Shown: positions 2,356-18,393 of the stretch, one piece after another | Position numbering within the stretch: position 1 is the stretch's first letter | Layout of the letters: the number at the start of each line of letters is the position of its first letter | IMG/VR virus record: IMGVR_UViG_3300013120_000153 | Span: 1-20,728 of that record | Strand: one strand, 5' to 3' | Length of the DNA stretch: 20,728 nucleotides | Origin: a virus | Program-made: the position numbers and the translations under genes | Notes under the pieces: model-generated | Database searches by the model: none | What the model was told of the DNA's origin: nothing | Seen by the model: the letters and a program-made list of their open reading frames with translations, nothing else

Positions 2356-5300
2356 TTATCGTAAACTTAAATACTTCCTATATAGTGTCTGCGTTAACAG
2401 TTTATCTTCTACCATTTGCGCTAGAACTTTCTTCAATGCTTCGCCTTTTAACTTAGCTGTCTTTTCTATAGCAATAGCAATCCTAGCAGTATTTTGAGCA
2501 TCGGTTATAAACTTGTTTATTCTTTTAGTTTTAATATCATCCGGTATTGCTTCGTAATTCTCATCGCTCATAAATTCTAATATTCTTTCGTAAGCAACTC
2601 TTCCAGATTCTTTCCACAGTTTAGTATTCTCTTGTTGTGTCAATGATTTGTAACCAAACTTAGTACCTAGTTGTGTAGTTTTAATTTTGTTATCATTATT
2701 TACTAATCTACGTATTTCTTCTACAACTGGGTCATGTTTTATCTTAGATGGCCTTGTAGGGTCAACCATAGATTCAATAAAATGCGTAGTTCTTTCTACT
2801 TCTCTACCAAATACATCTATTCTAGGTTCGAGTACTTTTCTTAATATAGGAATCCTAGAAATAAGTCTTTGCGTTAATCCTTGCGCCACTCTTATTTTTG
2901 GGTCAGTAGATACAGCAACATCTTTTACTATTGTAGGTACTACAGAAGATACAAAACTACTTACAAAATTACCGGCACTTCTTTTTGGATCGTCTATAGC
3001 ATTTAGAAATCTATTTACACTTTGCAAGAAAGTCTGTTCTGTAAATGACCTTATTCCACCAAATGTGCCTTGTGCTAAAGCTCCTGCTATACTTCCTTTA
3101 TCTTCGTATGCCTTAGCAAAATGCCCACCTATTAAAATAACATTACCTAACGGCCCAAAGGTTTGTACAGTACGCCACTTGCCACCTACTTTTATAGAAT
3201 TAGGTTTTTTACCTTCAAGATGCCATAAACGCCGTTCTGCTTCAGTTTTAGGTCTATCTAAACTTACCATACCTTTCTTATATAAGTATGCGCCAAAGCC
3301 AAGTATAGCAGTTCCTATAGCACCTCTACCCATACCCTTAGAAAAATCTCTTTGATCGAACTTACCTTTACCCATATTCTTGAATAAAGTCTTAAATACT
3401 CCAACTGGAGTATAGTTTAGAATCTGCGTAGCTACAGCTGATGGTGTTCTTCCAAACGGTAATATAAGGTGAGCACCAGGGCCTAAGTTCTGGAATTTCT
3501 TAGCTAAATTACCAAGTGCAGTTTCATTCTGATATACTGCGATCTTAGCATCTTCTATAGAATATAAAGCCATTTCTTCTGTAGGATTCATTACTAGATT
3601 ATCAATAAAGTCTTGAGCTTCTTTACCTTTTAGGCCTTTATTAATCGCGGCTACTTTCGCTTGTTCATATAGTGAGCGCATTTTAGCGCCATAATAAAAA
3701 GGTTGGTCTTCAGTTCCCAATATATTAAAGATAGTTTCTTCATACTTTTGCAAACCCTTTGCAAATTTACTCGAACCCATATTAACACGCTTATAATCAT
3801 ATTTAGACAATACATTTCTTTCATCGTATCCTGTTTTTAAGAATCGCCAACCTTTATCCGCACCCTCTTTAGTACCTTTGAATATTCCTTTAATAGTAAA
3901 AGCCACTGACCTTTTACCGGTTCCCACAGAGGCTATAATATCTATAACTGTAGCTGGAAAGTCTTTAATAGTTTCTGATATTGCATGGGCTATATTTGAG
4001 AATATATTTAAGCCGCTAGTTTTAATTCCAGTTAAAAGTCCTGCTTTCCATACAGTAATTATTTTTTCTATCAAAGGCGTAGGTACAAGATCCGTAATAT
4101 AGTCTTGCAGCTTCTTAAACTGTATTCCTTTTTCTTCACCTGCGGGCATCTTTTCTATAGCATTCATTCTAGTAATAATTTCTTTTGTCTGCGCTGGAGT
4201 TAATTCTGGTATTTTCTTTCTTAAACCAAGAGCACCACCTTTTGTCTTTTCTATTTGTTCGTTATATTTTTGTATACCCTTAGCTGCGAATCTTATCTGT
4301 CCTTCTGGTGTAAGTCTAGCTACAATAGAGGCCGCTTGAACTGACCTACCTAGTTCAGTTAATCTATGCGCCATTGAATGGGCTAATTCTGCAGCTTTCT
4401 CATATACGGCATCTTTAATCGTTTCGTCGGTTACGCCTTCTGCGTCTTTTGCATACTTCTTTAATAGCTCGGCACCTACTGCTATAGAAGCGTCATCAGT
4501 TCCTGTAGCTGCCATTTTTTGAGCTGTAGTTAAATTGTCTTTAATTAAATTCTTCGCCTTTATAGCAAGAGCATCTGTTTCTCTTGGGATATATTGTCCT
4601 GCTACTTTTATAGATGGTAATGCTCCCTTTACTGTTGATACAAAGCCACGTTCTTTAGGTTCTGGTTTTACTATAGTTTCTTTAGGTACTTTTGTAGGAG
4701 TAATACCAAGAACGGTTAATTCTCCTATAAGTTGTTTAGATAATCCTTGTAAATTACCACTCTCAATAGCCGATACTTGTTTAGGTGTAAGATTATATTT
4801 CTTAATTAAATCTTTTCCTATAAATACACCTCGTTGACTTCCTAGCTTAGAGTTTTTATATAATCTACCTACGTGCTTGTATATAGATTCTCTAGTAATT
4901 TTTATTAGCTTATATGCTTCTGTAGTCTGACCAAACTTAACTGGATCTCCGCCTCTATCTGGGTGTTGTTCTAAAGATAATTTCCTATATTGTTTCTTGA
5001 TTTGAGTTTCAGAACTTTTAGGATCTATACCTAGAGTCTTAAATGCTTGATTAAGTTTTACTTTATTGCCACCTATTTCTTTTGTGAGTAGATTATACAA
5101 ATCTGGATTCGTAGATCTTAGTCGTGTTAATGCTGCAGGTATCTTTTTGAATCCTGCTCCTATTGTCCACGCGATTAGCAAAGCTGTAGGATCAGTAACA
5201 AATTCAGTTAAACTTTCAGCTAGTTCTATTGGTAGATTCTTTAATGTTTCTTTATTTATTCCCTCTGGTACTTTTAACTTATCCAAAAATGGTTGCAAAG

Positions 5301-5739
5301 CAGGATTAGCACCAACTAGAATAGATCTTAATCCAGCATCTAAAGTTTCTCCTATAGCAGTTCGCATATCTTCTGACCAAGAACTCTTATAAATTAAATC
5401 TGCCCAACTAGAACTTTCAGCTTTCTCTATACTTTCTAAATCTTTTGGCATACCCATAGCAACCCACTTAAACGATGCAGCTCGTTCTGCATTAGGCCCA
5501 ACAAGAAAGTTTGCAGTTTCTATTTGTCTTGGAGAAAATGCACCAAGTATCGGCATATTATATAACATATCCATAGTAGTTTTTACAGCAGTTTGTAAGA
5601 CTGTAGGTTTTACTGGCTTTTCTACTAGCTCACCCTCATATACTGGTTCTGCCGTAGCCAAATCGATAGTCTCAGATGGTTCGATAATACCACCTGTTCG
5701 TTCTACTACCGGTTGAGCTGTTTTTAGATTAAAACCCAT
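2356..5739 (-). CDS. Large internal virion (ejection) protein, gp16-like, with a J domain
   Basis: An 1127-residue protein, the largest helical one here, in the position of T7 gp16. Residues about 229-285 match a DnaJ J domain: KTLGIDPKSSETQIKKQYRK, then LEQHPDRGGDPVKFGQTTEAY, with the HPD triad at 259-261 (encoded at 4957-4965). J domains stimulate Hsp70/DnaK ATPase through HPD. Helical regions follow, including KAGLLTGIKTSGLNIFSNIA (565-584), which resembles large phage ejection or polyvalent proteins, and GPGAHLILPFGRTPSAVATQ (753-772). Hydrophobic stretches at about 582-605 and 806-820 could contact membrane. No lysozyme-like transglycosylase motif was found at the N-terminus, unlike T7 gp16. 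The start overlaps the previous stop (TAATG). The J domain is clear; the ejection role is from context. Confidence 0.8.
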   Translation of the reverse strand: MGFNLKTAQPVVERTGGIIEPSETIDLATAEPVYEGELVEKPVKPTVLQTAVKTTMDMLYNMPILGAFSPRQIETANFLVGPNAERAASFKWVAMGMPKDLESIEKAESSSWADLIYKSSWSEDMRTAIGETLDAGLRSILVGANPALQPFLDKLKVPEGINKETLKNLPIELAESLTEFVTDPTALLIAWTIGAGFKKIPAALTRLRSTNPDLYNLLTKEIGGNKVKLNQAFKTLGIDPKSSETQIKKQYRKLSLEQHPDRGGDPVKFGQTTEAYKLIKITRESIYKHVGRLYKNSKLGSQRGVFIGKDLIKKYNLTPKQVSAIESGNLQGLSKQLIGELTVLGITPTKVPKETIVKPEPKERGFVSTVKGALPSIKVAGQYIPRETDALAIKAKNLIKDNLTTAQKMAATGTDDASIAVGAELLKKYAKDAEGVTDETIKDAVYEKAAELAHSMAHRLTELGRSVQAASIVARLTPEGQIRFAAKGIQKYNEQIEKTKGGALGLRKKIPELTPAQTKEIITRMNAIEKMPAGEEKGIQFKKLQDYITDLVPTPLIEKIITVWKAGLLTGIKTSGLNIFSNIAHAISETIKDFPATVIDIIASVGTGKRSVAFTIKGIFKGTKEGADKGWRFLKTGYDERNVLSKYDYKRVNMGSSKFAKGLQKYEETIFNILGTEDQPFYYGAKMRSLYEQAKVAAINKGLKGKEAQDFIDNLVMNPTEEMALYSIEDAKIAVYQNETALGNLAKKFQNLGPGAHLILPFGRTPSAVATQILNYTPVGVFKTLFKNMGKGKFDQRDFSKGMGRGAIGTAILGFGAYLYKKGMVSLDRPKTEAERRLWHLEGKKPNSIKVGGKWRTVQTFGPLGNVILIGGHFAKAYEDKGSIAGALAQGTFGGIRSFTEQTFLQSVNRFLNAIDDPKRSAGNFVSSFVSSVVPTIVKDVAVSTDPKIRVAQGLTQRLISRIPILRKVLEPRIDVFGREVERTTHFIESMVDPTRPSKIKHDPVVEEIRRLVNNDNKIKTTQLGTKFGYKSLTQQENTKLWKESGRVAYERILEFMSDENYEAIPDDIKTKRINKFITDAQNTARIAIAIEKTAKLKGEALKKVLAQMVEDKLLTQTLYRKYLSLR

Positions 5740-7256
5740 TATTTTCCTTTTAACTCCTTAAAGGTAAAATCTCCAAGTTCTTCTTTTGTTTCTTGCTTAG
5801 GTTTTTTTATTGCTTTGTTTTCTACATCTTTTAATTCGCCTGTAGGAAAACCAATTTTCATATTACCATTTTTATCTATTAACATTTGTCCTTCTTTGGG
5901 GTAGTTTGCCATTCTAGGATTAAGTTTTAGATTTGCTTCGTTAGTTACTCTCTTATAAGCATTTAGAGGAGTTTCGTTTTTCTCTAAACCTTTCATATAT
6001 TCCGATATTACAAAACCATGTTGATCTTCAGTAACAGACCCATCCCTGGCCCAACGTGCTATTGCATTGATTCCATAGTCTACTTGTTTCTGATAAATTT
6101 CAGCTTCTGTAGTTTCGTCACCTATTGGGCCAACTAGCTTTTCTGATAACTGAAGATTAACTGATTTCTTTCTAGCATAAAATAATATAGCACCTAACTT
6201 ATCAGCGCTAATATTTTTATTCCTATATATAGCACTTGCTGCAATTCTACTTAAAGAATCTCTAGTCTCTGCTTTGCTGGCTTCCTTAAATACTTTTACA
6301 ATACCCTCGTTTGCTGTGTCAGCGTAATAGCCAGTTCTAGACCTTGTGGCTTTACTTACAGCTTCTGCAAGAACATCGTCGCTGTTAATTAACTCTTGTG
6401 CCTCTGGACTTAGTTCATAAAGAGATTCTTGGCCGGTTGCTATAGCTTCTACTAAATCATATCTACCATTTACTTTATTCAACATTACGTCTTTATCTTC
6501 TAAATTTTTATAATGGTTCAAAGTAGATAATGCTGTATCAGTTTCTTTTTGGTCAAACCCAAATTCTCCATTTTCTAACATTTGCTTTGCTTTATCTCGG
6601 TCTATCTTAGCAGTACGTCTAAACCAATTCTGGTTACCTAGCTTTAATGCTTTCTGTTCTTCATCATAAGCTTTTTTGGTATCCCATATATTACTTGCTA
6701 CTGCTTCTGCGGTTAAATCTTTTATTCCTTTAATAGCTTCTTTAGAGCCATCAAAAAATTCTGACTTCTTTTGTAAGGCACTTCTTGTATTTACATCACC
6801 AACAACGGCCATATTTTTGTAGCGTTCTTTTATTACGTCATTAGTTAAAACTATACTATCTTTATCCCAATTAGCTTGAGCTACAACTAAATCAGTACTA
6901 TCTGTATAAATAGTTGTAAGATTTTCTCTACCTCTATTTAATCCCTCTTGAAAATCTGATAAATCTAAATCAGTTAAAGGTGTTCCATCCGCATTACGTT
7001 TCTGACTTTCTGATAATCTTAATTGAGCCATATAATCTGTTTTATAAAGATCAGCTCTTGAGTTTTCAGTAAACCTTCTAGAGTCGTCTAGTTTCTTATA
7101 AAGTACATTAGCGGTTTGTGCTATAGTTCCACCAAGCGACTTTAGGCCACCACTTATACCTATAGGTCTTCCTTGTTTAGCTTGTGGCGATTGAGTTGAT
7201 ACTTGAGGACTTACTAATTGCGCTGAGCCTGGTCTTATTACGGGTATTCTAGCCAT
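5739..7256 (-). CDS. Internal virion (ejection) protein, gp15-like
   Basis: A 505-residue protein that is almost entirely charged and predicted helical after a flexible N-terminus (MARIPVIRPGSAQLVSPQV). It includes helices such as LYKKLDDSRRFTENSRADLYK and repeated Lys/Glu-rich stretches, and ends in a basic-acidic tail (KKPKQETKEELGDFTF). No catalytic motif is visible. T7 gp15 is larger but has the same position and helical character, acting in the periplasmic tunnel through which DNA passes. AGGTG precedes the ATG, and the stop overlaps the next start (TAATG), so it is coupled to the large ejection protein. The assignment is positional. Confidence 0.65.
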   Translation of the reverse strand: MARIPVIRPGSAQLVSPQVSTQSPQAKQGRPIGISGGLKSLGGTIAQTANVLYKKLDDSRRFTENSRADLYKTDYMAQLRLSESQKRNADGTPLTDLDLSDFQEGLNRGRENLTTIYTDSTDLVVAQANWDKDSIVLTNDVIKERYKNMAVVGDVNTRSALQKKSEFFDGSKEAIKGIKDLTAEAVASNIWDTKKAYDEEQKALKLGNQNWFRRTAKIDRDKAKQMLENGEFGFDQKETDTALSTLNHYKNLEDKDVMLNKVNGRYDLVEAIATGQESLYELSPEAQELINSDDVLAEAVSKATRSRTGYYADTANEGIVKVFKEASKAETRDSLSRIAASAIYRNKNISADKLGAILFYARKKSVNLQLSEKLVGPIGDETTEAEIYQKQVDYGINAIARWARDGSVTEDQHGFVISEYMKGLEKNETPLNAYKRVTNEANLKLNPRMANYPKEGQMLIDKNGNMKIGFPTGELKDVENKAIKKPKQETKEELGDFTFKELKGK

Positions 7257-7263
7257 TATTCAC

Positions 7264-7818
7264 CTATCCTATCGTTTCTTTTGGCGGCTGCGGAGCTGGT
7301 TTAGTTACAGCTGCTTTAGGTTTTAAGAATTGTGCAGAACTTAACAATGTTCCACCTGCTTGTAAAGTAGCAGAAGTAGCCATAGCTCTACCAGTTAATC
7401 TGGTTATTACTGCACTTGATCTTTTACTACTTGCTGCTATATCCGCATTATATTTAGCAATAGCTATTTGATTTTTTGCATTAAATTGTCCTATAGCAAT
7501 TTCAAGTTCCGCGTTAGATATTGAATCGGCAATTACATCTACAGGACTTCCAGTTTCTACGGCTACACCACTGGCCGCAAATGCACTGACTTGTTCTCCT
7601 GTTGTAGTTGCTAAATTTTTTCTTTGTCGATATTCATTGAGTGCTGCATTTTCTTTTACTATTTTTGTTTCTCTTTCTACGCCAGCTAATATAAGTTCCA
7701 CATTCTGTTCGTCAATTCTAGCATTGTATTCTGCTTGTATCTTAGCTTCTTGTCCAGCTGTATATTGTCCTATAGCCGTTAATCCTATTCCTGCTACTGC
7801 TATATAAGTAAATGACAT
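7264..7818 (-). CDS. Internal virion protein, gp14-like
   Basis: A 184-residue Ala-rich helical protein in the position of T7 gp14, which exits the capsid first and makes an outer-membrane channel. The N-terminus (about 3-20, FTYIAVAGIGLTAIGQYT) is hydrophobic. A long amphipathic helix follows (QAEYNARIDEQNVELILAGVE). The segment GEQVSAFAASGVAVETGSPVDV is characteristic of a widespread podovirus structural protein. The C-terminus is Pro/Lys-rich (KPAPQPPKE). GAGGGG precedes the ATG. Assignment rests on order, size and this conserved middle segment; membrane-pore activity is inferred from the T7 analogy. Confidence 0.72.
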   Translation of the reverse strand: MSFTYIAVAGIGLTAIGQYTAGQEAKIQAEYNARIDEQNVELILAGVERETKIVKENAALNEYRQRKNLATTTGEQVSAFAASGVAVETGSPVDVIADSISNAELEIAIGQFNAKNQIAIAKYNADIAASSKRSSAVITRLTGRAMATSATLQAGGTLLSSAQFLKPKAAVTKPAPQPPKETIG

Positions 7819-7819
7819 A

Positions 7820-10800
7820 TTACCCCTCTTCCACGGCGCTTCTAAGTATAATTGCCAGAATATTCGCCGGTAATGGTTTAGTTTGTTTTATGTATATCTC
7901 ATCTTCTCTATTCCATGTAGTCTGAAATACTTCAGCCATATCCCCTGTAAATAAAGCTTCGTCATCTGTTTCGTCGACATAACTTAAACTTTCTAGTTGA
8001 TCTTCATCTCTACCTATAGATAATCCTTGAGTACGATCTAATCTTAAAGTACCCTTAAAGATTCTACGCATTCTTGATTGACCAGTTCCAGTAGGACTAC
8101 CATCTGATAACTTCAATAGCTGTATAGTTCCAACATAACGAAGTCCTACGTGTACTACAGCGGCAGCAGCCGATAAAGTAATACCTCCACCAGATACAAG
8201 ATAAGTTTCTGTTGAAGGAATATATCCGTCTACTTGAGCATATACAGTTTCTCCCTCTAGATGATCAAGACCTGTTATAGCAGTTACCATCTTTCTTACT
8301 TCGCCACCAGAAATATAAGTAGTATAAGCCGAGCCGTCTAAGTCAACTCCAACTGAAGTCTGTAATTCAAAAGTGTCATCTGTTTTATCGGCTACATAGT
8401 AAGTATTACCATTTAACTCCGTCATACCCACAATACCATTTATCTTAACCTGGTCTCCGTTAGAGAAACCATGGCTTACTGCCGTTACAACCACAGGGTC
8501 AGCTACTGTAGCACCGGTAATAGTTATTGGACTATCTAGCGTTAATGAGGAGTCAACTCTTACAGCATCCCAATCTTCATCAAAATCTTCGTTAGAGAAA
8601 TATTCAATAAACCTTTTATCTGTACCATTTATATTACGTTTAACCACAACCCAAACTTGATCAGCTTCTTCTGATTTTGGTATTACTGCTACTGATTCAA
8701 AAGTACCATTTCCTTGAGCATCAGCTCCTGCTACAAATCTACACCAACCCATAACTTCTTGTTCTGGATTGCGCGTTAAAACAGACATCTCGCCATCTTC
8801 CCTTACGCAGTAAATTCTATCGTTAGGTGATTGCTGGTGGTCTAAGTCTACTACAGTTCCACCGTCTTTTAGAATATGCTCTGCTAACAAAGTCATATCG
8901 CTTGAGATAGTAGAGTCTACTTGAAAAGAATAAGACAATTCTCTTAACCTTGAAAAATCTCTTTGTATATAATATAAATAAGAAGATATTCTTTTTGGTG
9001 GAAAACTTGCTACTCCATAATTGGTGTCTCTTTTTACTACTATATTTGTAGGTGAAATTGAAGCTGTAGTATCTCCAGCAGAAGCAGAAAAAGTTCCACC
9101 TATAGTACCTAAAGACAATACTCTATTGCCAGAGGACAACCATCTAATAGCATTTCGTTGTTCGGTAGCAACTTCAAAAGTCAAAGAATAATTAGCTGTT
9201 GTAGCTGTAGTATCAAAACTATCATAAGCTTTTGTATATGAACCCCAAAACTTTTGTGGCTCATGGTCTGTATTAGCATAATATAATTTCTGTTCGTGAA
9301 AAGCAATAGCTGACGGCCATCCTCTGTAATCCGAGAAAGCACCCTCAGCCCAATCTGTTACAGCGCCAGGGCCTGTATTCAAATCTCCTGCAGTTCCATC
9401 TGGTTCTGCTTCTACATCACCAGTTACAACAGTAGTAGAAGTATATGCCGTTATCTTTACCATACCCTCTTTAACTCTAAAAAAAGCGCCTATATGCAAA
9501 ACATCAAAGATAGCTGTAGAAGCAGTTAAAGTTATACCGGCGCCGGTGTCGGCTGAAGGCGTTATAGTTGTAGCAGTAGTGTTGGTATCCTTTAGTGGAG
9601 CTCTAACAAAAGATACAAGAGATAAGCTAAAAGCACTAGCACCAGTTCTTGATAACTTTCTAGGAGCATAGTCTGGGTGAACTATATACATAACATCGTT
9701 ATACTGCGCTACCTGTAAATCAAAGACATCAGCTACAACATAGGGAGTAGAAATTTCTGTTTGTTGTGAAGCAGCAGCCGTATGAGCAGAAGTAGGAATT
9801 ACTATAGTATCCGTATTGTCTGCGTTGGGGTCTGCGCTAAAAGCATTTGAATTGATAATCCTTACATCGTCTATACTTCCCTGGAAATAATCACCTGGTA
9901 CTCCTGTAGCACCTATATATACGTCACCAGCAAATGTATCGGTACTACTATCCTGCACGTATGCGACTTGAGTTCCATCCTTATAAAGACCATATTTGTC
10001 TGCCCTTTTGCAAACAGCTATATGATGAAAAGTGGTATTATCTGTAATCTCGCCACCGTAACCCGTAGTTATAATCGTCACTCCACCTGAAACCGCAATA
10101 AATCTAAGACCGGACCCGTGAACATGCTGCAATAGCCAGTAGTTATTAGCGTCCTCCCACTGTACGATTAAAGTTTCTGTTCCAACATGGTCCGCAAATT
10201 TCACCCATAAATCAATAGTCCAGTTATCATCAGCAGATTTTATTACGTCAAATTCCGCGCTATCGGATATTTGCAGATAATCGGAATCACCATCGAGAAG
10301 AAGCGAAGCTGTACCAAATTTCTTAGCGTCTGTATCTAACAAAGCCGTTCCTTGAAATTGCGTTCTATGAAATGAAGCTGAAGCATCCTGAGAGTTGCAG
10401 TGAAGCAATAACGAAGTATTAGCATCAGAGGTATGCGCTGCTGTTGGTGCTGTAAAATCAGTAGACCACCTCGCTACACCTTTTGATACACGGATTTCGT
10501 CCATATATCCATCCATATATCGAGCTGATGTATTTCCTAATCTACCTATAACTAAATCAGCAGCCGTTCCGCCTATATCATAAGCAACAGCCCAAGTAGC
10601 GCCTATCTGCGTACCGTCTATAAACACCTTTACATTTGCGCCGGTTATTCCTACTACTGTTACATGATACCAAGTATCTACAACAGGAGACCAAGCAAAG
10701 TTCTGATTATCACCTTCTAAATCTACTCGAATGCCAGTACCAGAAATAAATCTTACACCCCAAGAGTTTCCCCAGTCACCATCATAGTTGGTAATAAACG

Positions 10801-11371
10801 CATATTCTATGGCTGCTACGACGTCCATACGAATCCAAAAGTCAACTGTAAAACTACCTGTTCCAAAATCCCAGTCAGCGTGGTCTGGTACTGTTAGATA
10901 GTCACTATTTCCGTCAAGAAGAAGTGAACCGCTACCAAATTTCTTTTGAAGGGTAGACATCTGTGCAGTAGCAACAGTTGAAACAACGTGTCCTGTATTT
11001 CCACTGTCTATGAACTCTTTTGAACCGTCTACGCCTGCATCGTTAGGCAATAATAGTTTCGTTAAGTCAACTGTCTGTTCGATAAGGTCTGCACCATTAG
11101 AATATAGCCTAAAATACTGGTCTCCTGCTTCTACTACATAATCTTGGTCAGCAGAATATTGAAAAGGAAATATCTTAGCTACTCCATTATCTTTAGTTGA
11201 AGCAAGATATTTAAGGCCTGGCCGAAAAGAAACTCCACCTAATTGGTTTATTAAAAAATTCTCTATCTTAGCTGCACCAGAAGAATATTTGGCTAAATCA
11301 AACCGGCCTTTACCTTTAGGCGACCATTCTCCACTTGTTAAAGCATTTACTACACTAGTTGCTTTAGGCAT
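7820..11371 (-). CDS. Tail tubular protein B (gp12-like nozzle) with two LamG-like domains and one FCCH-like module
   Basis: An 1183-residue nozzle protein, much longer than T7 gp12 (about 790). Core parts are recognisable: the N-terminus (VVNALTSGEWSPKGKGRFDLAKY, GGVSFRPGLKYL), STPYVVADVFDLQVAQYNDVMYIVHPDYAPRKLSR at about 541-575, and YRGWPSAIAFHEQKLYYA. Residues about 105-308 and 320-538 are two LamG/concanavalin-like domains, each with FGTASLLLDG-type and DYL motifs, a WYHVTV or FHHIAV strand and a closing MDEIRVS or IDDVRII strand. A FCCH-like module lies at about 951-1030. A GTG at 11392 could extend the frame, but the ATG at 11371 has GAGG upstream and overlaps the previous stop (TAATG), so I used it. 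LamG domains usually bind glycans, so host-surface contact is inferred. Confidence 0.88.
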   Translation of the reverse strand: MPKATSVVNALTSGEWSPKGKGRFDLAKYSSGAAKIENFLINQLGGVSFRPGLKYLASTKDNGVAKIFPFQYSADQDYVVEAGDQYFRLYSNGADLIEQTVDLTKLLLPNDAGVDGSKEFIDSGNTGHVVSTVATAQMSTLQKKFGSGSLLLDGNSDYLTVPDHADWDFGTGSFTVDFWIRMDVVAAIEYAFITNYDGDWGNSWGVRFISGTGIRVDLEGDNQNFAWSPVVDTWYHVTVVGITGANVKVFIDGTQIGATWAVAYDIGGTAADLVIGRLGNTSARYMDGYMDEIRVSKGVARWSTDFTAPTAAHTSDANTSLLLHCNSQDASASFHRTQFQGTALLDTDAKKFGTASLLLDGDSDYLQISDSAEFDVIKSADDNWTIDLWVKFADHVGTETLIVQWEDANNYWLLQHVHGSGLRFIAVSGGVTIITTGYGGEITDNTTFHHIAVCKRADKYGLYKDGTQVAYVQDSSTDTFAGDVYIGATGVPGDYFQGSIDDVRIINSNAFSADPNADNTDTIVIPTSAHTAAASQQTEISTPYVVADVFDLQVAQYNDVMYIVHPDYAPRKLSRTGASAFSLSLVSFVRAPLKDTNTTATTITPSADTGAGITLTASTAIFDVLHIGAFFRVKEGMVKITAYTSTTVVTGDVEAEPDGTAGDLNTGPGAVTDWAEGAFSDYRGWPSAIAFHEQKLYYANTDHEPQKFWGSYTKAYDSFDTTATTANYSLTFEVATEQRNAIRWLSSGNRVLSLGTIGGTFSASAGDTTASISPTNIVVKRDTNYGVASFPPKRISSYLYYIQRDFSRLRELSYSFQVDSTISSDMTLLAEHILKDGGTVVDLDHQQSPNDRIYCVREDGEMSVLTRNPEQEVMGWCRFVAGADAQGNGTFESVAVIPKSEEADQVWVVVKRNINGTDKRFIEYFSNEDFDEDWDAVRVDSSLTLDSPITITGATVADPVVVTAVSHGFSNGDQVKINGIVGMTELNGNTYYVADKTDDTFELQTSVGVDLDGSAYTTYISGGEVRKMVTAITGLDHLEGETVYAQVDGYIPSTETYLVSGGGITLSAAAAVVHVGLRYVGTIQLLKLSDGSPTGTGQSRMRRIFKGTLRLDRTQGLSIGRDEDQLESLSYVDETDDEALFTGDMAEVFQTTWNREDEIYIKQTKPLPANILAIILRSAVEEG

Positions 11372-12192
11372 TACAACCTCGCTTCTTCCCACTCAGACAT
11401 TTCTAATTCTTCTGGGCTACCCTGCGAGCTATCGGCTCCCATAGCTCTTGGTAAATCTATATTCTCATATTTTGCTACAAGATCTTTTGTTCTATTGGCA
11501 GACTGTGTAAGCGAGAAACATATCTCCGAAGCAATTTTAGTAGCCAGCGCCGTAACAAACTGTGATGAATAAAGTGTAGGGTCTTCATTTCTATAGGTGT
11601 ATATCATTTTTAAGCTATTAGTATCAGAATAAATATAACCGGCTTCTACAGTCCAATAAGCATCTCTATTTGAAAGTATATTCACTCTTATAAAGTCAGT
11701 AGGTAAAGTATATTGATAAGTAGATTCGTCGTCGTCCATTGAAAGGTCAGATAACTTTGTTATGTAACCATTTTCGGTATAAGCGGTATAACCCGAACCA
11801 TCTACATCTGTACCTACCGCTGACTGTAGCTCAAAAGTATCAGCTGTTTTACTTGCTACAAAATAAGTCTCACCGTTTACTTCTGTCATACCATCAACTG
11901 AAGTTATTATTACTTCGTCTTCATCGGAAAAACCATGCGCCACAGAAGTTACTACTGGTGGGTTAGCTGCTGTTATACCAGTAATTACTTTAGCTAAATT
12001 CATTCTTTTCTGAGCAAAAGTCCATGGGTGTTCTGATAAGACTTGATCTAAAGCATAGGCATAGCTATCCTCAATACGTTTACTTTCTTGAGATACAGGT
12101 GTAGTTAATTCAGCAGAGGTTATTCTCTTTGATCCTATCATACTTAAAGCTAAGTTACATATTTGTAATTTAGTTACAGTTCCTGTAGCCAT
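11371..12192 (-). CDS. Tail tubular protein A (gp11-like adaptor) with FCCH-like insertion
   Basis: A 273-residue protein that should form the adaptor ring between the connector and the tail nozzle. The N-terminal part, MATGTVTKLQICNLALSMIGSKRI then RIEDSYAYALDQVLSEHPWTFAQKR, is the hallmark of the podovirus tail tubular A family. The C-terminal part (YTYRNEDPTLYSSQFVTALATKIA, then LTQSANRTKDLVAKYE) is also typical. Between them, residues about 70-147 are an extra beta module: PPVVTSVAHGF, then EVIITSVDGMTEVNGETYFV and TFELQSAVG. This resembles the FCCH-like repeats (named from E1 enzymes) seen in phage proteins. The same module occurs in tail tubular B. AAGGAG lies six bases before the ATG. 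Confidence 0.88.
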   Translation of the reverse strand: MATGTVTKLQICNLALSMIGSKRITSAELTTPVSQESKRIEDSYAYALDQVLSEHPWTFAQKRMNLAKVITGITAANPPVVTSVAHGFSDEDEVIITSVDGMTEVNGETYFVASKTADTFELQSAVGTDVDGSGYTAYTENGYITKLSDLSMDDDESTYQYTLPTDFIRVNILSNRDAYWTVEAGYIYSDTNSLKMIYTYRNEDPTLYSSQFVTALATKIASEICFSLTQSANRTKDLVAKYENIDLPRAMGADSSQGSPEELEMSEWEEARL

Positions 12193-12195
12193 AAT

Positions 12196-12561
12196 TTACT
12201 CCTTATTCATTTCACGCCATTTATCAGCTAGTGCTTTATTGTTATTACAAAATTCTATTGCCAACGCTATATCTTCTATCCTTAATGCGTTGCCGCCACC
12301 TGCGGCCATACGTAATTTTTCTTGTATTGAAAATTTATCCCATGGTACATCAGTTACTATATATGTTTTGCCACCTCTGCCATCTGCAACAACAGGTACT
12401 TCGCATCCTCTAAATTCTTCGGTTCCCATAGGTGTTCCTGCAGCTGGATAATTATTGTATACTACCTCAACTTTTTTTGGTTGTAACAAAAAATATGTTG
12501 ACAAAGATAAACTTATAATAAGCATCACAAAAATAATAATATTTCCCCATTTATTAAACAT
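12196..12561 (-). CDS. Single-pass membrane protein downstream of the Wzy/WaaL-like gene
   Basis: A 121-residue protein with a short basic head (MFNKWGN), one membrane helix at about 8-27 (IIIFVMLIISLSLSTYFLL) and a soluble C-terminal domain predicted outside the cytoplasm. The domain contains GTEEFRGCEVPVVADGRGGKTYIV and EFCNNNK. Its two cysteines could pair in the periplasm. The ATG at 12561 follows AAGGAG by six bases and overlaps the end of the Wzy/WaaL-like gene by eight bases. An in-frame ATG at 12582 lacks such a site and was not chosen. I recognise no family. The tight overlap suggests a shared role with the upstream enzyme. An inner-membrane spanin is an alternative, but the domain does not look coiled-coil. 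Confidence 0.65.
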   Translation of the reverse strand: MFNKWGNIIIFVMLIISLSLSTYFLLQPKKVEVVYNNYPAAGTPMGTEEFRGCEVPVVADGRGGKTYIVTDVPWDKFSIQEKLRMAAGGGNALRIEDIALAIEFCNNNKALADKWREMNKE

Positions 12562-13618
12562 AATATTCTCCTTGTTTAGCACAATAAGCTAAAAACATTA
12601 TAATAATCAGCACCGACTGACACATTCTATCTGGAAAATGAACTGCCATATTTACACCTACAACAATAAGACCAGACTGCTTTACTGGGTCTCTTGTTCG
12701 CCAGGCAATAGTACCTATTAAACCTAGTAATAAAATAAACCCTGGTACACCTATTTCAAAAGGTATTTGCAACCAAGAGTTATGCGCTCTTGCCCATTTA
12801 GCACCTACTTGCTGACCTCTTACAAAGTTACTACAAAGATATTGAAATAATATTTTATATGTAGCTATACCATAACCCATAGGATTTTTAACTACTAATT
12901 CTGCTGTTTCTTTCCATACAGGTCCTCTGCCAGCTACGGTAAATACCCTAATGTCGTCGGTCTTATAAGCAAACAATAAAGGAAAAACAATAGCAACTAT
13001 TATTATAGGAATCCTAAGCTTTCTAACTGTTCTAAATAAAAAGTATCCAGCGCCTAAAACTATCGATAGCATCATGCCGCTTGAACCAGATATAAATGCT
13101 ATAATAGCTATGGGGAGCCAGTTTAATTTCTTATGTATAAGGAAAGGTGTTAATATACAAACAAAAGAAGATAACATCATCTTGTTACCTATCGTACCTA
13201 ATATAACCGGTGTTTTTAATCCAAAATTAAGAAGTGTATCTTTACCAAATAATTGCATTATGATAAGTAAGGTTATAAAAAAGAATATAGCTTGAATAGT
13301 TCTTTTGACTGGTTCAAAATCTTCTATCTTAGTACAGGCCACGTAGTAATAAGTACAAACTACTACCGTCCAAAACATTGTAAAAGACATGTAAGGTGCT
13401 CTTGAGATAAAACAAGATACAAAACACCATATCAAAAGTAACTTAAGAAAAACATTTGTCTTAAAGTTTATTAGCGCAAAAGAAAGGAATCCAGAAGTAA
13501 ATACTGTCCATACCCAAACCAAAGAGTTAAAACTACAATCAAGCTTAAACTCCCAGGGCGGAGTAAGAGCAAACAGTACTAGAGGAAATAATAATATATG
13601 AGTCAAGTATTTTTTCAT
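12554..13618 (-). CDS. O-antigen ligase/polymerase-like (Wzy/WaaL) membrane protein
   Basis: A 354-residue polytopic protein with about eleven hydrophobic segments and one large loop between segments 8 and 9 (about 219-291). That loop carries the family signature: GRGPVW (R231, W235), NPMGYGIATYK and AHNSWLQIPFEIGVPG (H279, N280). In WaaL and Wzy enzymes, a loop Arg and a His in the His-Asn pair are needed for joining glycan repeats to lipid A core or to each other. The role here is inferred: changing host surface polysaccharide during infection or lysogeny. It starts eleven bases beyond the terminator-like hairpin with no clear Shine-Dalgarno sequence, suggesting low expression. It sits among virion genes, which is unusual. 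Whether it polymerises, ligates or inhibits the host enzyme cannot be told. Confidence 0.78.
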   Translation of the reverse strand: MKKYLTHILLFPLVLFALTPPWEFKLDCSFNSLVWVWTVFTSGFLSFALINFKTNVFLKLLLIWCFVSCFISRAPYMSFTMFWTVVVCTYYYVACTKIEDFEPVKRTIQAIFFFITLLIIMQLFGKDTLLNFGLKTPVILGTIGNKMMLSSFVCILTPFLIHKKLNWLPIAIIAFISGSSGMMLSIVLGAGYFLFRTVRKLRIPIIIVAIVFPLLFAYKTDDIRVFTVAGRGPVWKETAELVVKNPMGYGIATYKILFQYLCSNFVRGQQVGAKWARAHNSWLQIPFEIGVPGFILLLGLIGTIAWRTRDPVKQSGLIVVGVNMAVHFPDRMCQSVLIIIMFLAYCAKQGEYYV

Positions 13619-13664: not shown

Positions 13665-14198
13665 TTATGTTACAGTTACCCCAGTCTGGCCGATAATTAT
13701 CCAACCAGTAGTGTCGTCTGCATATAAAAGAGTCACTGTATCTAATATTGAATCAAAAGCAATATCATCCCAGCCAGTCTCAACAACTGCTGCTTGACCC
13801 GAACCGCCCAGGCCATCATCTGAGATGGTGATAGCTGCACCTATGGAATCCAAGGTAATGGTAACCATTTGTCCAGCTGTACCTGCTGCAAGCGATATTG
13901 TCTTAGGTGCTCCTACCCCCTGAAGTTTTATAACTCCATAGGCTAAGGAGGCAGCAGTCAACCCAGATGCTGTTGAGGCATGGGTTGTAACCCCGTCCTT
14001 GTGTCCATTTGCAAGTATGGTTACTCGTGAACCATCTAAGGTAAGATCTTGACCTTCGATATTTAGCTGGATAGCTTCTCCAACGTAAGTCTCGACACTA
14101 GCATCAAATTCTTCCTCGATTGAGACCGTCCCTGCAAATGCTACATTAACAAAGGATAGGAGAGCGATACACATCGCTATTCCGATAAATTTTCGCAT
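13665..14198 (-). CDS. Secreted beta-rich virion-like protein with Sec signal peptide
   Basis: A 177-residue protein. Residues 1-22 form a textbook Sec signal peptide: MRK, a hydrophobic core, then NVAFA before G. The mature part is Gly/Ala/Thr-rich, with an acidic start and a C-terminal domain (GQMVTITLDSIGAAITISDDG, GWDDIAFDSI, DTVTLLYADDTTGWIIIGQTG). That C-terminal pattern is typical of beta-sandwich or fibre-head modules in phage tail and head proteins. AAGGAG precedes the ATG, and the gene belongs to the capsid cistrons, so it is probably abundant. A terminator-like hairpin follows its stop. It could be an exported surface-binding protein or a virion protein that uses the hydrophobic N-terminus for membrane contact. 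Function unknown. Confidence 0.7.
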   Translation of the reverse strand: MRKFIGIAMCIALLSFVNVAFAGTVSIEEEFDASVETYVGEAIQLNIEGQDLTLDGSRVTILANGHKDGVTTHASTASGLTAASLAYGVIKLQGVGAPKTISLAAGTAGQMVTITLDSIGAAITISDDGLGGSGQAAVVETGWDDIAFDSILDTVTLLYADDTTGWIIIGQTGVTVT

Positions 14199-14663: not shown

Positions 14664-15527
14664 TTATGCTTCGTAGCATGCAATTTCTACACATTTCGCC
14701 TCGTCCATACGAGTCGCGCCGGCAGATAACGATGCATACGCCTGCGTTGCATGATGCTTCGTAGGAATAATATCTAGCTTGGCTACCATGCCTGTACGCT
14801 TTGCTAGAGTTACACCTGACTTTGCCCATGCAAGAACAGTTCTTGTCGTGCCAGAAAGTACAATCCTCTGGGTTCTAACAAACTTGAAGCCCATGAATGT
14901 GTCTACTCTGCCTTCAACAAGCGCTTTGATAGAATTATAATCGATTGATTTAACTTCAGCGGTGTTTAATAGGTTGGAAATCTGTGCTGCAGAACAGGCA
15001 ATATATCTTTCCTCGTCAGGATCTACTTCAGCTGCGTCAAGTAACTGCTTCGCGCTGATAAGTTTTGCTAAAGTAAGCCCTGCTGTTCCGTTAATTGCTA
15101 TCTGGTTTGCTGATGTAAACGTGGTAGAAGTTCCACCTGCTTTGCCAGTATAAGCAGTACCGGAAAAAGCTGCTATAATCATGTCGTCTATCTTTCTTCC
15201 GATTGCCCATGCGCCGGCTTTCATCAACCCTGAAGTTGGGTCAAGAAGCATAGCAAGCTTATCTTCTTTGTCAATAAGCTTTGACCAGTATACATCTATA
15301 AACGATACTCTACGTCTCTTATAATCGTCTGCTGCATACTTTACATCTACATTACGCGTGTCCTTTTCACTTGCTGTATCTTCGCCGTACTGGTCGAAAT
15401 ACTCTTCCTCACCATACGAACCAGTCTCAACATTTACGCAATCGGTGAGTCTTGAGCCTTTTTGCTGTGAAAGCAAATCCATCGTACTACCGAATTGCTT
15501 CACAAAGGCAGTGGTTATATTAGCCAT
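14664..15527 (-). CDS. Major capsid protein
   Basis: A 287-residue protein expected to form the icosahedral shell, probably with an HK97-like fold. It begins MANITTAFVKQFGSTMDLLSQQKGS and has an N-terminal arm rich in acidic and aromatic residues (EEEYFDQYGED). A P-domain-like region with IGRKIDDMIIAAFSGTAYTG follows. Later come ISNLLNTAEVKSIDYNSIKALVEG and FMGFKFVRTQRI, the pattern of podovirus capsid proteins of the BPP-1 and marine podovirus type. It ends KCVEIACYEA. The ribosome binding site is strong and follows an A-run (AAAAAAAAGGAG), suitable for the most abundant virion protein. Position after scaffold and before a decoration-like protein supports the call. Confidence 0.9.
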   Translation of the reverse strand: MANITTAFVKQFGSTMDLLSQQKGSRLTDCVNVETGSYGEEEYFDQYGEDTASEKDTRNVDVKYAADDYKRRRVSFIDVYWSKLIDKEDKLAMLLDPTSGLMKAGAWAIGRKIDDMIIAAFSGTAYTGKAGGTSTTFTSANQIAINGTAGLTLAKLISAKQLLDAAEVDPDEERYIACSAAQISNLLNTAEVKSIDYNSIKALVEGRVDTFMGFKFVRTQRIVLSGTTRTVLAWAKSGVTLAKRTGMVAKLDIIPTKHHATQAYASLSAGATRMDEAKCVEIACYEA

Positions 15528-16507: not shown

Positions 16508-16765
16508 TTAATCCTCCTTCTTTATTTCTGGCGCTACTGCGCCAAGTAACCGCGTATGGATTGTGAGCCACGCAGCTCGCATTCCCTCTTTAATATCGCT
16601 ACCGTTTGTAGGTTCGAATATATAACATCTGTCAGCTAGGTCTTGCATAACCAATTCACCATTAGATGTTGTAAATACTTGCTGATATATTTTCTGTAAA
16701 TCTTCAACAGACATTTTCTTTAGCTTTTCTCTGCGGTCATTTATATCTTTTAAGCTATCTATCAT
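16508..16765 (-). CDS. Bbp19-like phage protein
   Basis: An 85-residue protein resembling the small family named after Bbp19 of Bordetella phage BPP-1. It has a helical N-terminus, then IYQQVFTTSNGELVMQDLA (28-46), the turn CYIFEP and the helix EGMRAAWLTIHTRLL. Its members sit between portal and scaffold/capsid genes in many podoviruses, as here. Their function is not established; a minor structural or assembly role is assumed from position. The ATG overlaps the connector stop (TAATG) with AAAGG upstream. It lies two bases before the scaffold gene, so all three genes are probably translated from one message. Confidence 0.75.
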   Translation of the reverse strand: MIDSLKDINDRREKLKKMSVEDLQKIYQQVFTTSNGELVMQDLADRCYIFEPTNGSDIKEGMRAAWLTIHTRLLGAVAPEIKKED

Positions 16766-18393
16766 TATTTACCTTTCTGTGCATTAGCTATATCACTAGC
16801 TGCAGCTGCCGCTACTGCACCAGTATCTACTTGCTGTTTCCTGGCTTGTGCTTCTGCGTCAGCTATTGCAGCTTCGGCTCTAAGCTTTCGAATTTTTCTA
16901 ACTACGCTGTCTGATTTTATAATCTCTGGAGTAATACCTCGTATCTTAGCTACTTGATTTAGAGCTTCATCTGCATCAAACTTGTCCGTTACGTCAGGAG
17001 CTATAGCACCTATCGAGCCTAGATCCTGCATAAAAGCTTGTAGAGAGAATACTTCGCTTTCTTTCTGCGCCCTTGCCAAAGCAGAGATATAGACTATCTC
17101 TAGTTCTTGATCTTGAACACTTAAAGGTGGCTCTGGTATCTCGCCTTGAGCAAATAGAAGATCGAATACCCTTAGTATAATAGGGTCCATTACTTCTTGG
17201 GTAAATCTACCTACTACTGGCCCTAAGAGAACCATATTCTCAGATACTCGCCTTTGTACTTCTGGGATAGTCATCTGCTTGGTAATATTTGATATAGCCT
17301 GGAATAAAGGTACAAAGTATGCCTTCTCAATATTCCTTTGTGTCTCTTGAATCATCTCTAGGGTTAAGTTCGCATTAGAACCAGTAGGAAAAGCCGCAAT
17401 AGCATCACTCTTAGTTTTTGAGTCGTAGTAATTAATCTTGCTAGGGTTAGCATTAAGCGGTGCTATAAAACCTCTACGTGGTGCTATTAGAGGTGGATCA
17501 GCTTGTTTCATAGCGCTACGCAGTAGTGTTTTAACCATAGCGTTTACAAGTTTAACATCAGGTAGTATATCCATAGACGGGGAGTAACCAAATACATCGC
17601 TTGTGTCTTTAGAAAATCTACCTACAGCAAACGGGTTACTTAGGTACCCGCCCTCGCCTATAAGGTGTCTTTTGGACTTCTCAACCCATACGCTCATCCA
17701 GGGCATGTTAAGATTATCTTCTTTGCTAGGGTCTCTTTTGTCGCGTGGCCCAACGTAGTGCATAAACTTCATTTTCTCGTTAGGCTTCTTTACATACGTC
17801 TTTAACACTTCTTCGCCGGCCTGGTCTCCCCATAAGTCGTAAGCCTGTTGTGCCGTTAAAGGAAATGTCCTGTAAACTCTATTTACTCTACCATAGGCAT
17901 CTTCTTCAAATACTATCTGGTCTATGGGTATTTCAGTAAAGCGTATCTTTTCTTTAACATCTTCAAGGGTTAATATTGCACTGGTACCAAAGCAGCCGGA
18001 GTTAACATAAAACTCTTGCATAGTAGTATCAAAGTTAGAATTAGATAACGCTGCAAATATAATATCCTCGACGTCCTTAAACCATATTTGGACTTCTTTT
18101 TCTTTCATTGTATCTTTGTTCTGTATTCTTAGGTTAAACCACTTACTTACAGGATTAGTCAAATGCGAGTGAAAACCAGCAGCCATCATCTTTAATCCCC
18201 TAGGTGCCGTAGAATCATAAAGCTTAGTGGCATCGGTCTTTTGTCCTTTAGACTTGGTGCGAGTTACATAAGACTTTCTAGGCAATACCCATTCGGCTAG
18301 TTCTTGAAATAAAGACTTCCATGGCGCATTAAGGTCAACTAACTCTTGCTCTCTGGTACAAAGCTTTTCAATATCTTTTTTACCCATTGACAT
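16765..18393 (-). CDS. Head-tail connector (portal) protein
   Basis: A 542-residue protein that should form the dodecameric ring at the capsid vertex, the docking site for the terminase and later the short tail. It matches the podovirus head-to-tail connecting family (Pfam Head-tail_con type): N-terminal helix with NAPWKSLFQELAEWVLP, then the characteristic KLYDSTAPRGLKMMAAGFHSHLTNP and WFNLRI, then a helical stem and crown ending in an Ala-rich helix (VRKIRKLRAEAAIADAEAQARKQ region). Length is normal for the family. AGGAG lies six bases before the ATG. The stop overlaps the next start as TAATG. Both neighbours (Bbp19-like protein and scaffold) fit the standard order. Confidence 0.93.
   Translation of the reverse strand: MSMGKKDIEKLCTREQELVDLNAPWKSLFQELAEWVLPRKSYVTRTKSKGQKTDATKLYDSTAPRGLKMMAAGFHSHLTNPVSKWFNLRIQNKDTMKEKEVQIWFKDVEDIIFAALSNSNFDTTMQEFYVNSGCFGTSAILTLEDVKEKIRFTEIPIDQIVFEEDAYGRVNRVYRTFPLTAQQAYDLWGDQAGEEVLKTYVKKPNEKMKFMHYVGPRDKRDPSKEDNLNMPWMSVWVEKSKRHLIGEGGYLSNPFAVGRFSKDTSDVFGYSPSMDILPDVKLVNAMVKTLLRSAMKQADPPLIAPRRGFIAPLNANPSKINYYDSKTKSDAIAAFPTGSNANLTLEMIQETQRNIEKAYFVPLFQAISNITKQMTIPEVQRRVSENMVLLGPVVGRFTQEVMDPIILRVFDLLFAQGEIPEPPLSVQDQELEIVYISALARAQKESEVFSLQAFMQDLGSIGAIAPDVTDKFDADEALNQVAKIRGITPEIIKSDSVVRKIRKLRAEAAIADAEAQARKQQVDTGAVAAAAASDIANAQKGK

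Follow-up and report, generated by a model that had tools for sequence, protein, structure and literature searches.

The gene at 2356-5739 on the minus strand of a podovirus genome (IMG/VR record IMGVR_UViG_3300013120_000153, positions 1 to 20,728; this whole stretch of DNA is called the window below) contains a genuine J domain with an intact HPD and a predicted J fold, in a protein that is probably ejected into the host cell with the DNA. Judged from comparison with its relatives, the J domain is specific to its lineage and sits in a slot whose content is exchangeable; it is neither ancestral nor vestigial. The reading that we favour, with about even confidence, is that it is a delivered accessory domain, carried in an exchangeable N-terminal cassette of a "polyvalent"-type ejection protein, and that it recruits host DnaK. 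Such an arrangement would put a DnaK recruiter in the cell ahead of phage transcription. The exchange of cassettes also allows a comparison supplied by nature: the ejection module stays constant while the J domain is present or absent, and the role of ejected proteins in the cytoplasm thereby becomes directly testable.

The virus and its virion genes

The window encodes a terminase (presumably; it is named by eye from its sequence), portal, capsid, tail tubular proteins A and B, a gp14-like and a gp15-like protein, and then a protein of 1127 aa. The order portal, capsid, tail tubular A, tail tubular B, gp14, gp15, J-domain gene is given by the following genes.

16765-18393, minus strand: portal (head-to-tail connecting) protein (PF12236, E 4.2e-127)
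14664-15527, minus strand: major capsid protein (PF19821, E 2.3e-79)
11371-12192, minus strand: tail tubular protein A-like (phrog_394, E 8e-37)
7820-11392, minus strand: tail tubular protein B-like, with two Laminin_G_3 matches (phrog_376, E 3e-168; Pfam PF13385)
7264-7818, minus strand: gp14-like internal virion protein (phrog_418 "internal virion protein", E 1.4e-11)
5739-7256, minus strand: gp15-like gene, 505 aa, assigned by position
2356-5739, minus strand: open reading frame of 1127 aa, probable ejection (internal virion) protein, D-like, with a J domain (phrog_6651)

For the gp15-like gene, no Pfam family matches, and the only similarity, a weak one, is to its counterparts in two related loci, L011 and L012. 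A second IMG/VR record (38,142 bases) matches the window without a difference over all 19,475 bases compared (an overlap of about 19.5 kb). Since the two records are identical base for base, they are taken as one virus and not as two independent witnesses. No phage-encoded Hsp70 is found in the 38,142-base record.

Some other genes in this region deserve mention. A gene for an O-antigen ligase/Wzy_C-type membrane protein (12554-13618, minus strand; PF04932, 50.5 bits, cut-off 31.7) sits within the virion-gene block, with the capsid gene on one side and the tail genes on the other, and L011, L012 and L014 have open reading frames of comparable size with a hydrophobic start at the equivalent position. 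Signal-peptide-like starts (e.g. MKKLLLAVVFLFAISSIAFA), which are unusual in virion parts, are present in three genes in or beside the block (3-1175, 1905-2342 and 13665-14198, all on the minus strand). The small domain E1_FCCH (PF16190) is common to the adjoining tail-tube genes at 7820-11392 and 11371-12192 (minus strand). Elsewhere in the same virus (locus L219, 10011-11516, plus strand), a DNA methyltransferase-like open reading frame holds, in frame and in its middle, a stretch that resembles a LAGLIDADG endonuclease (AWLAGIVEGEGCIHI...); intein-type end residues around this stretch are not obvious by eye.

The J domain

The 1127-aa protein is divided into the following parts, all on the minus strand.

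4642-5739: N-terminal cassette, residues 1-366, in which relatives of the C-terminal module differ in sequence
5128-5184: hydrophobic segment ALLIAWTIGAGFKKIPAAL, residues 186-204, just N-terminal to the J domain (Kyte-Doolittle mean 1.31 over 19 residues)
4864-5064: J domain, residues 226-292 (Pfam core, residues 233-279, at 4903-5043)
4957-4965: HPD tripeptide, residues 259-261, read from the sequence (codons in plus-strand numbering)
2356-4641: conserved C-terminal module, residues 367-1127, with relatives in IMG/VR

The preliminary description of this DNA, made by eye, had placed a J domain with an intact HPD in QYRKLSLEQHPDRGGDP (residues 250-266 of the open reading frame 2356-5739) followed by FGQTTEAYKLI (residues 269-279), and both motif and positions are correct. 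PF00226 (DnaJ) matches residues 233-279 with 38.5 bits against a gathering score of 27.8 (E 1.2e-9), and a search at the DNA level finds the J domain at 4903-5046 (minus strand, E 7.3e-13), with no stop codon interrupting the frame. A sequence search of the PDB also matches J domains, with E-values down to 2e-7. The HPD lies between helices II and III, helix II being basic (IKKQYRKLSLEQHPDR), and is invariant in all 22 rows of an alignment of the window J domain with 21 free-standing viral J domains.

The predicted structure agrees with this assignment. AlphaFold2 models residues 216-345 with helix I, helix II, an HPD loop and helix III (helices at positions 29-43 and 51-87 of the model), and pLDDT in the J core is mostly above 90 (92-97 in the blocks covering it). 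Searches with Foldseek and VIA-align return J domains as the top structural matches, among them Tim14/Tim16, CbpA and Hdj1. The model of the full-length protein, with a mean pLDDT of 54.8, is too poor for a structure search.

The window J domain keeps 15 of the 18 positions that are invariant among the 21 free-standing viral J domains, which were retrieved by a pattern fixing part of helix II, so that columns 31-39 of the alignment are biased; when these columns are left out, 10 of 12 invariant positions are kept by a hand count. In the other alignment columns, it has the majority residue in 24%. By this measure, conservation of the J positions is far beyond chance, and the domain keeps the positions expected of a working J domain.

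Family of the ejection protein

The protein is assigned to the ejection proteins by a match of residues 803-935 to phrog_6651 "internal virion protein" (E 2.7e-10) and by its position after the gp14-like (phrog_418) and gp15-like genes, and it is on this gene order and this family match that its probable ejection is based. Weak matches are also found by tblastn to "internal virion protein D" of Desulfovibrio phage ProddE, Roseobacter phage CRP-403 and KM23-C739. The preliminary description had called it gp16-like. The gene order and phrog_6651 uphold this name; sequence similarity to T7 gp16 is not detected, and "gp16-like" is, as far as sequences tell, a statement on gene position and probable role.

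The protein of locus L078 is 53% identical from about residue 367 onwards, and all before that point is unrelated. The proteins of L212, L213 and L214 follow the same pattern, in which the C-terminal modules are alike (45-53% identity over these four loci, and up to 54% across all relatives) and the N-terminal parts are unrelated. A wider scan of IMG/VR gives 34 loci with this module and 32 open reading frames over the profile threshold including that of the window virus, leaving 31 relatives, of which 29 are distinct because L227, L228 and L239 have identical scores and lengths. L216 and L217 fall under the profile threshold and are left out of this count. The podovirus portal PF12236 is matched in 10 of the 32 records with the module (in nine above the cut-off), the other 22 including some short contigs, a tail-tube gene lies upstream of the module gene in 10 of the 32 loci, and a P22-type portal is found in none of the 32 records. 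The C-terminal module may thus not be confined to the podovirus virion type. Among plasmids, there is a weak match to the module in a Bordetella record, and the J matches there are separate from it.

Exchange of the N-terminal cassette

In all relatives, a single junction joins the C-terminal module to differing N-terminal cassettes of about 180-890 aa, the shortest of which (about 180-210 residues) are those of L223, L226, L231 and L227. The 30 cassettes compared fall into ten groups with no detectable similarity between groups at E 1e-4, and PF00226 is matched in one of the 30, that of the window. A scan with the window cassette returns only the window virus, so that no kin of the cassette is found other than through the J domain; its comparison by hhalign with two groups of other cassettes is negative, and residues 1-226 have no homologue at the N-terminal end of other cassettes.

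None of the 31 relatives of the C-terminal module has a J domain in the same open reading frame. A Pfam J domain is likewise missing from the six phrog_6651-type proteins ("internal virion protein D") examined and from seven further relatives from other loci, and none of 50 records that carry related genes for tail tubular B contains a J domain. Whole-record Pfam searches give a J domain in one of 27 records with the C-terminal module and a weak one in one of 16 records, in each case on a separate open reading frame (in the phages of L246 and L216, respectively). The former phage (G082) encodes a separate protein of about 195-205 residues with a C-terminal J domain (L248, 1075-1662, plus strand; HPDKGG, 37.9 bits), and a J match is similarly placed in phrog_9210. 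The nearest relative by tail tubular protein B (68%) is L011, the sequence of which stops within the counterpart of the J-domain gene. The single HPD of L011 (VGLHPDKDEIG) was considered as a J domain and rejected, being no J domain by Pfam; it recurs at the same place in L078. The N-terminal cassettes of the two proteins (L011, 11149-12081; L078, 8076-11519) are related, at 41% identity, and HPDKD is conserved in them.

The J-domain cassette is known from one virus only. This could be expected if the J domain were a functionless relic captured by recombination, or if the gene were an assembly chimera, and yet the frame is open through the junction of cassette and module, G+C is 0.31-0.37 in the cassette against 0.36 in the module, and synonymous codon use does not differ significantly between them (p 0.059). 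The J positions are kept far above background, and there is no difference between the two records across 19.5 kb, although they possibly derive from the same underlying data. A relic or chimera is therefore very improbable. The preliminary description had held that homologues lacking the HPD would point to a vestigial insertion. The homologues do lack it, but they lack the whole domain and carry unrelated cassettes in its place, and the window J domain keeps most of the invariant positions; taken together, these features point to a lineage-specific gain and not to decay.

Contents of other cassettes

Most of the cassettes match nothing, and the recognized domains are mostly weak. "DarB-like antirestriction" (phrog_10089) is matched in three of the 30 cassettes (best E 6.5e-14), two of which were identified as L222 (6.5e-14) and L237 (8e-10) when ten cassettes were rescanned. 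Endolysin matches are found by PHROGs in two of the 30, including L222, where they overlap the DarB-like match; the L222 cassette also matches phrog_2563 over most of the profile (E 2e-19). Matches to PARP in the L234 cassette (18.5 bits, E 0.0015) and to PBECR2 in the L235 cassette (19.1 bits, E 0.0016) are under the Pfam cut-off and serve as leads only. Phage_Mu_Gp36 is matched by Pfam in one of the 30 at E <0.01. The L234 cassette carries YHTT and GSYFSTTPEEA, which by eye look like motifs of an ADP-ribosyltransferase, and the L230 cassette has a HELWH motif, which is metallopeptidase-like as a motif only. A sequence search of the PDB with these ADP-ribosyltransferase-like and metallopeptidase-like cassettes (L234 and L230) gives no useful match. 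As far as these similarities go, what fills the slot in relatives resembles delivered effectors more than chaperones.

This bears on the possibility that the protein chaperones itself, in which case DnaK, recruited by the J domain inside the infected cell, would keep this large protein in solution up to its packaging into the head, and the J domain would have no role after ejection. J domains are described as obligate partners of DnaK (Perrody et al., PMC3486835), according to a prediction in a survey of jumbo phages, host HSP70 is recruited by phage DNAJ proteins to assist folding and assembly (PMC7824862), and no assumption on topology is required. On the other hand, 31 relatives with a similar C-terminal module and cassettes of up to about 890 aa do without a J domain in the open reading frame, and the effector-like neighbours in the slot do not suggest a chaperone. 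We regard self-chaperoning as rather doubtful. The DarB-like sequence in three of the 30 cassettes might be taken to favour counter-defence, in which a delivered J domain acts as a decoy that diverts DnaK or a DnaJ-dependent sensing of infection; phage sensing by bNACHT25 has been reported to need DnaJ (PMC12169576). A role as a decoy seems distinctly improbable.

Possible role of the J domain in the ejected protein

The preliminary description had proposed that DnaK is recruited as part of core ejection, or of assembly of the inner core. This does not fit the 31 relatives: since they manage without a J domain, an obligate role in which DnaK pulls the ejectosome is disfavoured. The same relatives weigh against an import motor, as which that proposal may be read, in which the J domain is placed where the entry channel opens into the cytoplasm and recruits DnaK to trap, refold or pull the ejected chains or the DNA-protein complex, much like Tim14 or Sec63 at translocons. 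The J domain does follow the hydrophobic segment 186-204, which may have a role at the membrane, T7 gp16 has been modelled as crossing the inner membrane and refolding (PMC8954989), and among the structural matches is Tim14/Tim16 (2guz), part of the mitochondrial import motor. The latter match, however, is not clearly apart from other J domains (Z 7.2, below the "clear" level of the tool, against 4-6 for the others), and the membrane topology of the window protein is extrapolated from that of T7. An import motor is thus unlikely.

We prefer a delivered accessory domain. The C-terminal approximately 760 residues would be the constant part for the virion and DNA entry, and the N-terminal approximately 180-890 residues, swapped among phages at one junction, would carry optional host-acting domains. 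Given an intact HPD in the J domain of what is probably an ejection protein, recruitment of host DnaK is the natural expectation. Following entry of the protein into the host cell, its J domain would dock host DnaK via helix II and the HPD and stimulate its ATPase, so that DnaK might be tethered at the entry site, or steered to clients chosen by the phage, at the very start of infection. Recruitment of DnaK would be an optional aid or a takeover function and not a core part of DNA entry. In the model of T7 gp16, the N-terminal 228 residues are periplasmic and are followed by a membrane region and then a cytoplasmic part (PMC8954989). If the window protein had a T7-like topology, its J domain would lie on the cytoplasmic side, and hence on the side of DnaK; this orientation is borrowed from the T7 model. 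Packaging, ejection, exposure to the cytoplasm, binding of DnaK and an effect on the host are all presumed steps of this scheme.

In a bolder and tentative form, to which we give a low probability, the protein would be a virion-delivered Hsp70 co-chaperone at the inner membrane face, either serving as a Tim14/Sec63-like import motor for ejected phage proteins or reprogramming DnaK before phage genes are expressed, and its J domain would be the first found as an exchangeable effector of an ejection protein.

Comparison with known systems

To our knowledge, phage J domains known or found so far belong to small proteins of their own that are produced in the course of infection. Among the best 80 matches, there is no second J-bearing ejection protein, and all J-bearing open reading frames other than that of the window virus itself have 381 aa or fewer. 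No J domain on an ejection protein is found in the eight examined among the matches listed (60 of 268 phage records) or in three further records, and in the open PMC literature we found no paper joining J domains or DnaJ with ejection or internal virion proteins. A high-listed J match in a podovirus-sized record, that of Pseudomonas phage Y6 (L016, OQ572408), was rejected; the 27.9 kb examined reads as Pseudomonas chromosome, with dnaK followed by dnaJ and other housekeeping genes.

T7 gp16 (phrog_342) resembles the window protein in its position after gp14 and gp15, in size and in its proposed role. The similarity ends there: hhalign gives a probability of about 0.1 %, phrog_342 is matched by T7 gp16 and not by the window protein, and the lytic transglycosylase domain that is N-terminal in T7 gp16 has no Pfam match in the window protein. 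The phrog_6651 family (ProddE, CRP-403 and KM23-C739) shares the gene order and has detectable similarity over residues approximately 558-1063, but none of the six members examined has a J domain.

Phage RB43 encodes a J domain in 057w, which is described as a separate protein made in the infected cell and was studied in chimeras with DnaJ, H38Q serving as the control (Perrody et al., 2012, PMC3486835), whereas the window J domain is fused to a probable virion ejection protein. DNA polymerases of the HMO-2011 type are also reported to have a DnaJ-derived segment fused into a phage protein, although this consists of the CXXCXGXG motifs of the central domain of DnaJ and not of the J domain (PMC6918029).

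A close parallel is found in the polyvalent proteins of phages and conjugative elements (Iyer et al., 2017, PMC5512222), described as large multidomain proteins that are thought to be injected with the DNA and that have swapped domains. The words "DnaJ", "J-domain" and "Hsp70" do not occur in the main text of that paper. The window protein differs from polyvalent proteins in having just one recognizable accessory domain; Pfam finds no LPD domain in it, and LPD38 is present in the examined proteins of ct8d5349 and HTVC010P. The catalogue of injected polyvalent proteins includes ADP-ribosyltransferases, zincin metallopeptidases and PBECR nucleases (PMC5512222), some of which are echoed, weakly, in the cassettes of relatives of the window protein. 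The exchange of disparate domains within one family of long polypeptides, which is characteristic of polyvalent proteins, is seen here as well, one C-terminal module being joined to ten groups among 30 cassettes, several of them with differing domain matches, some weak.
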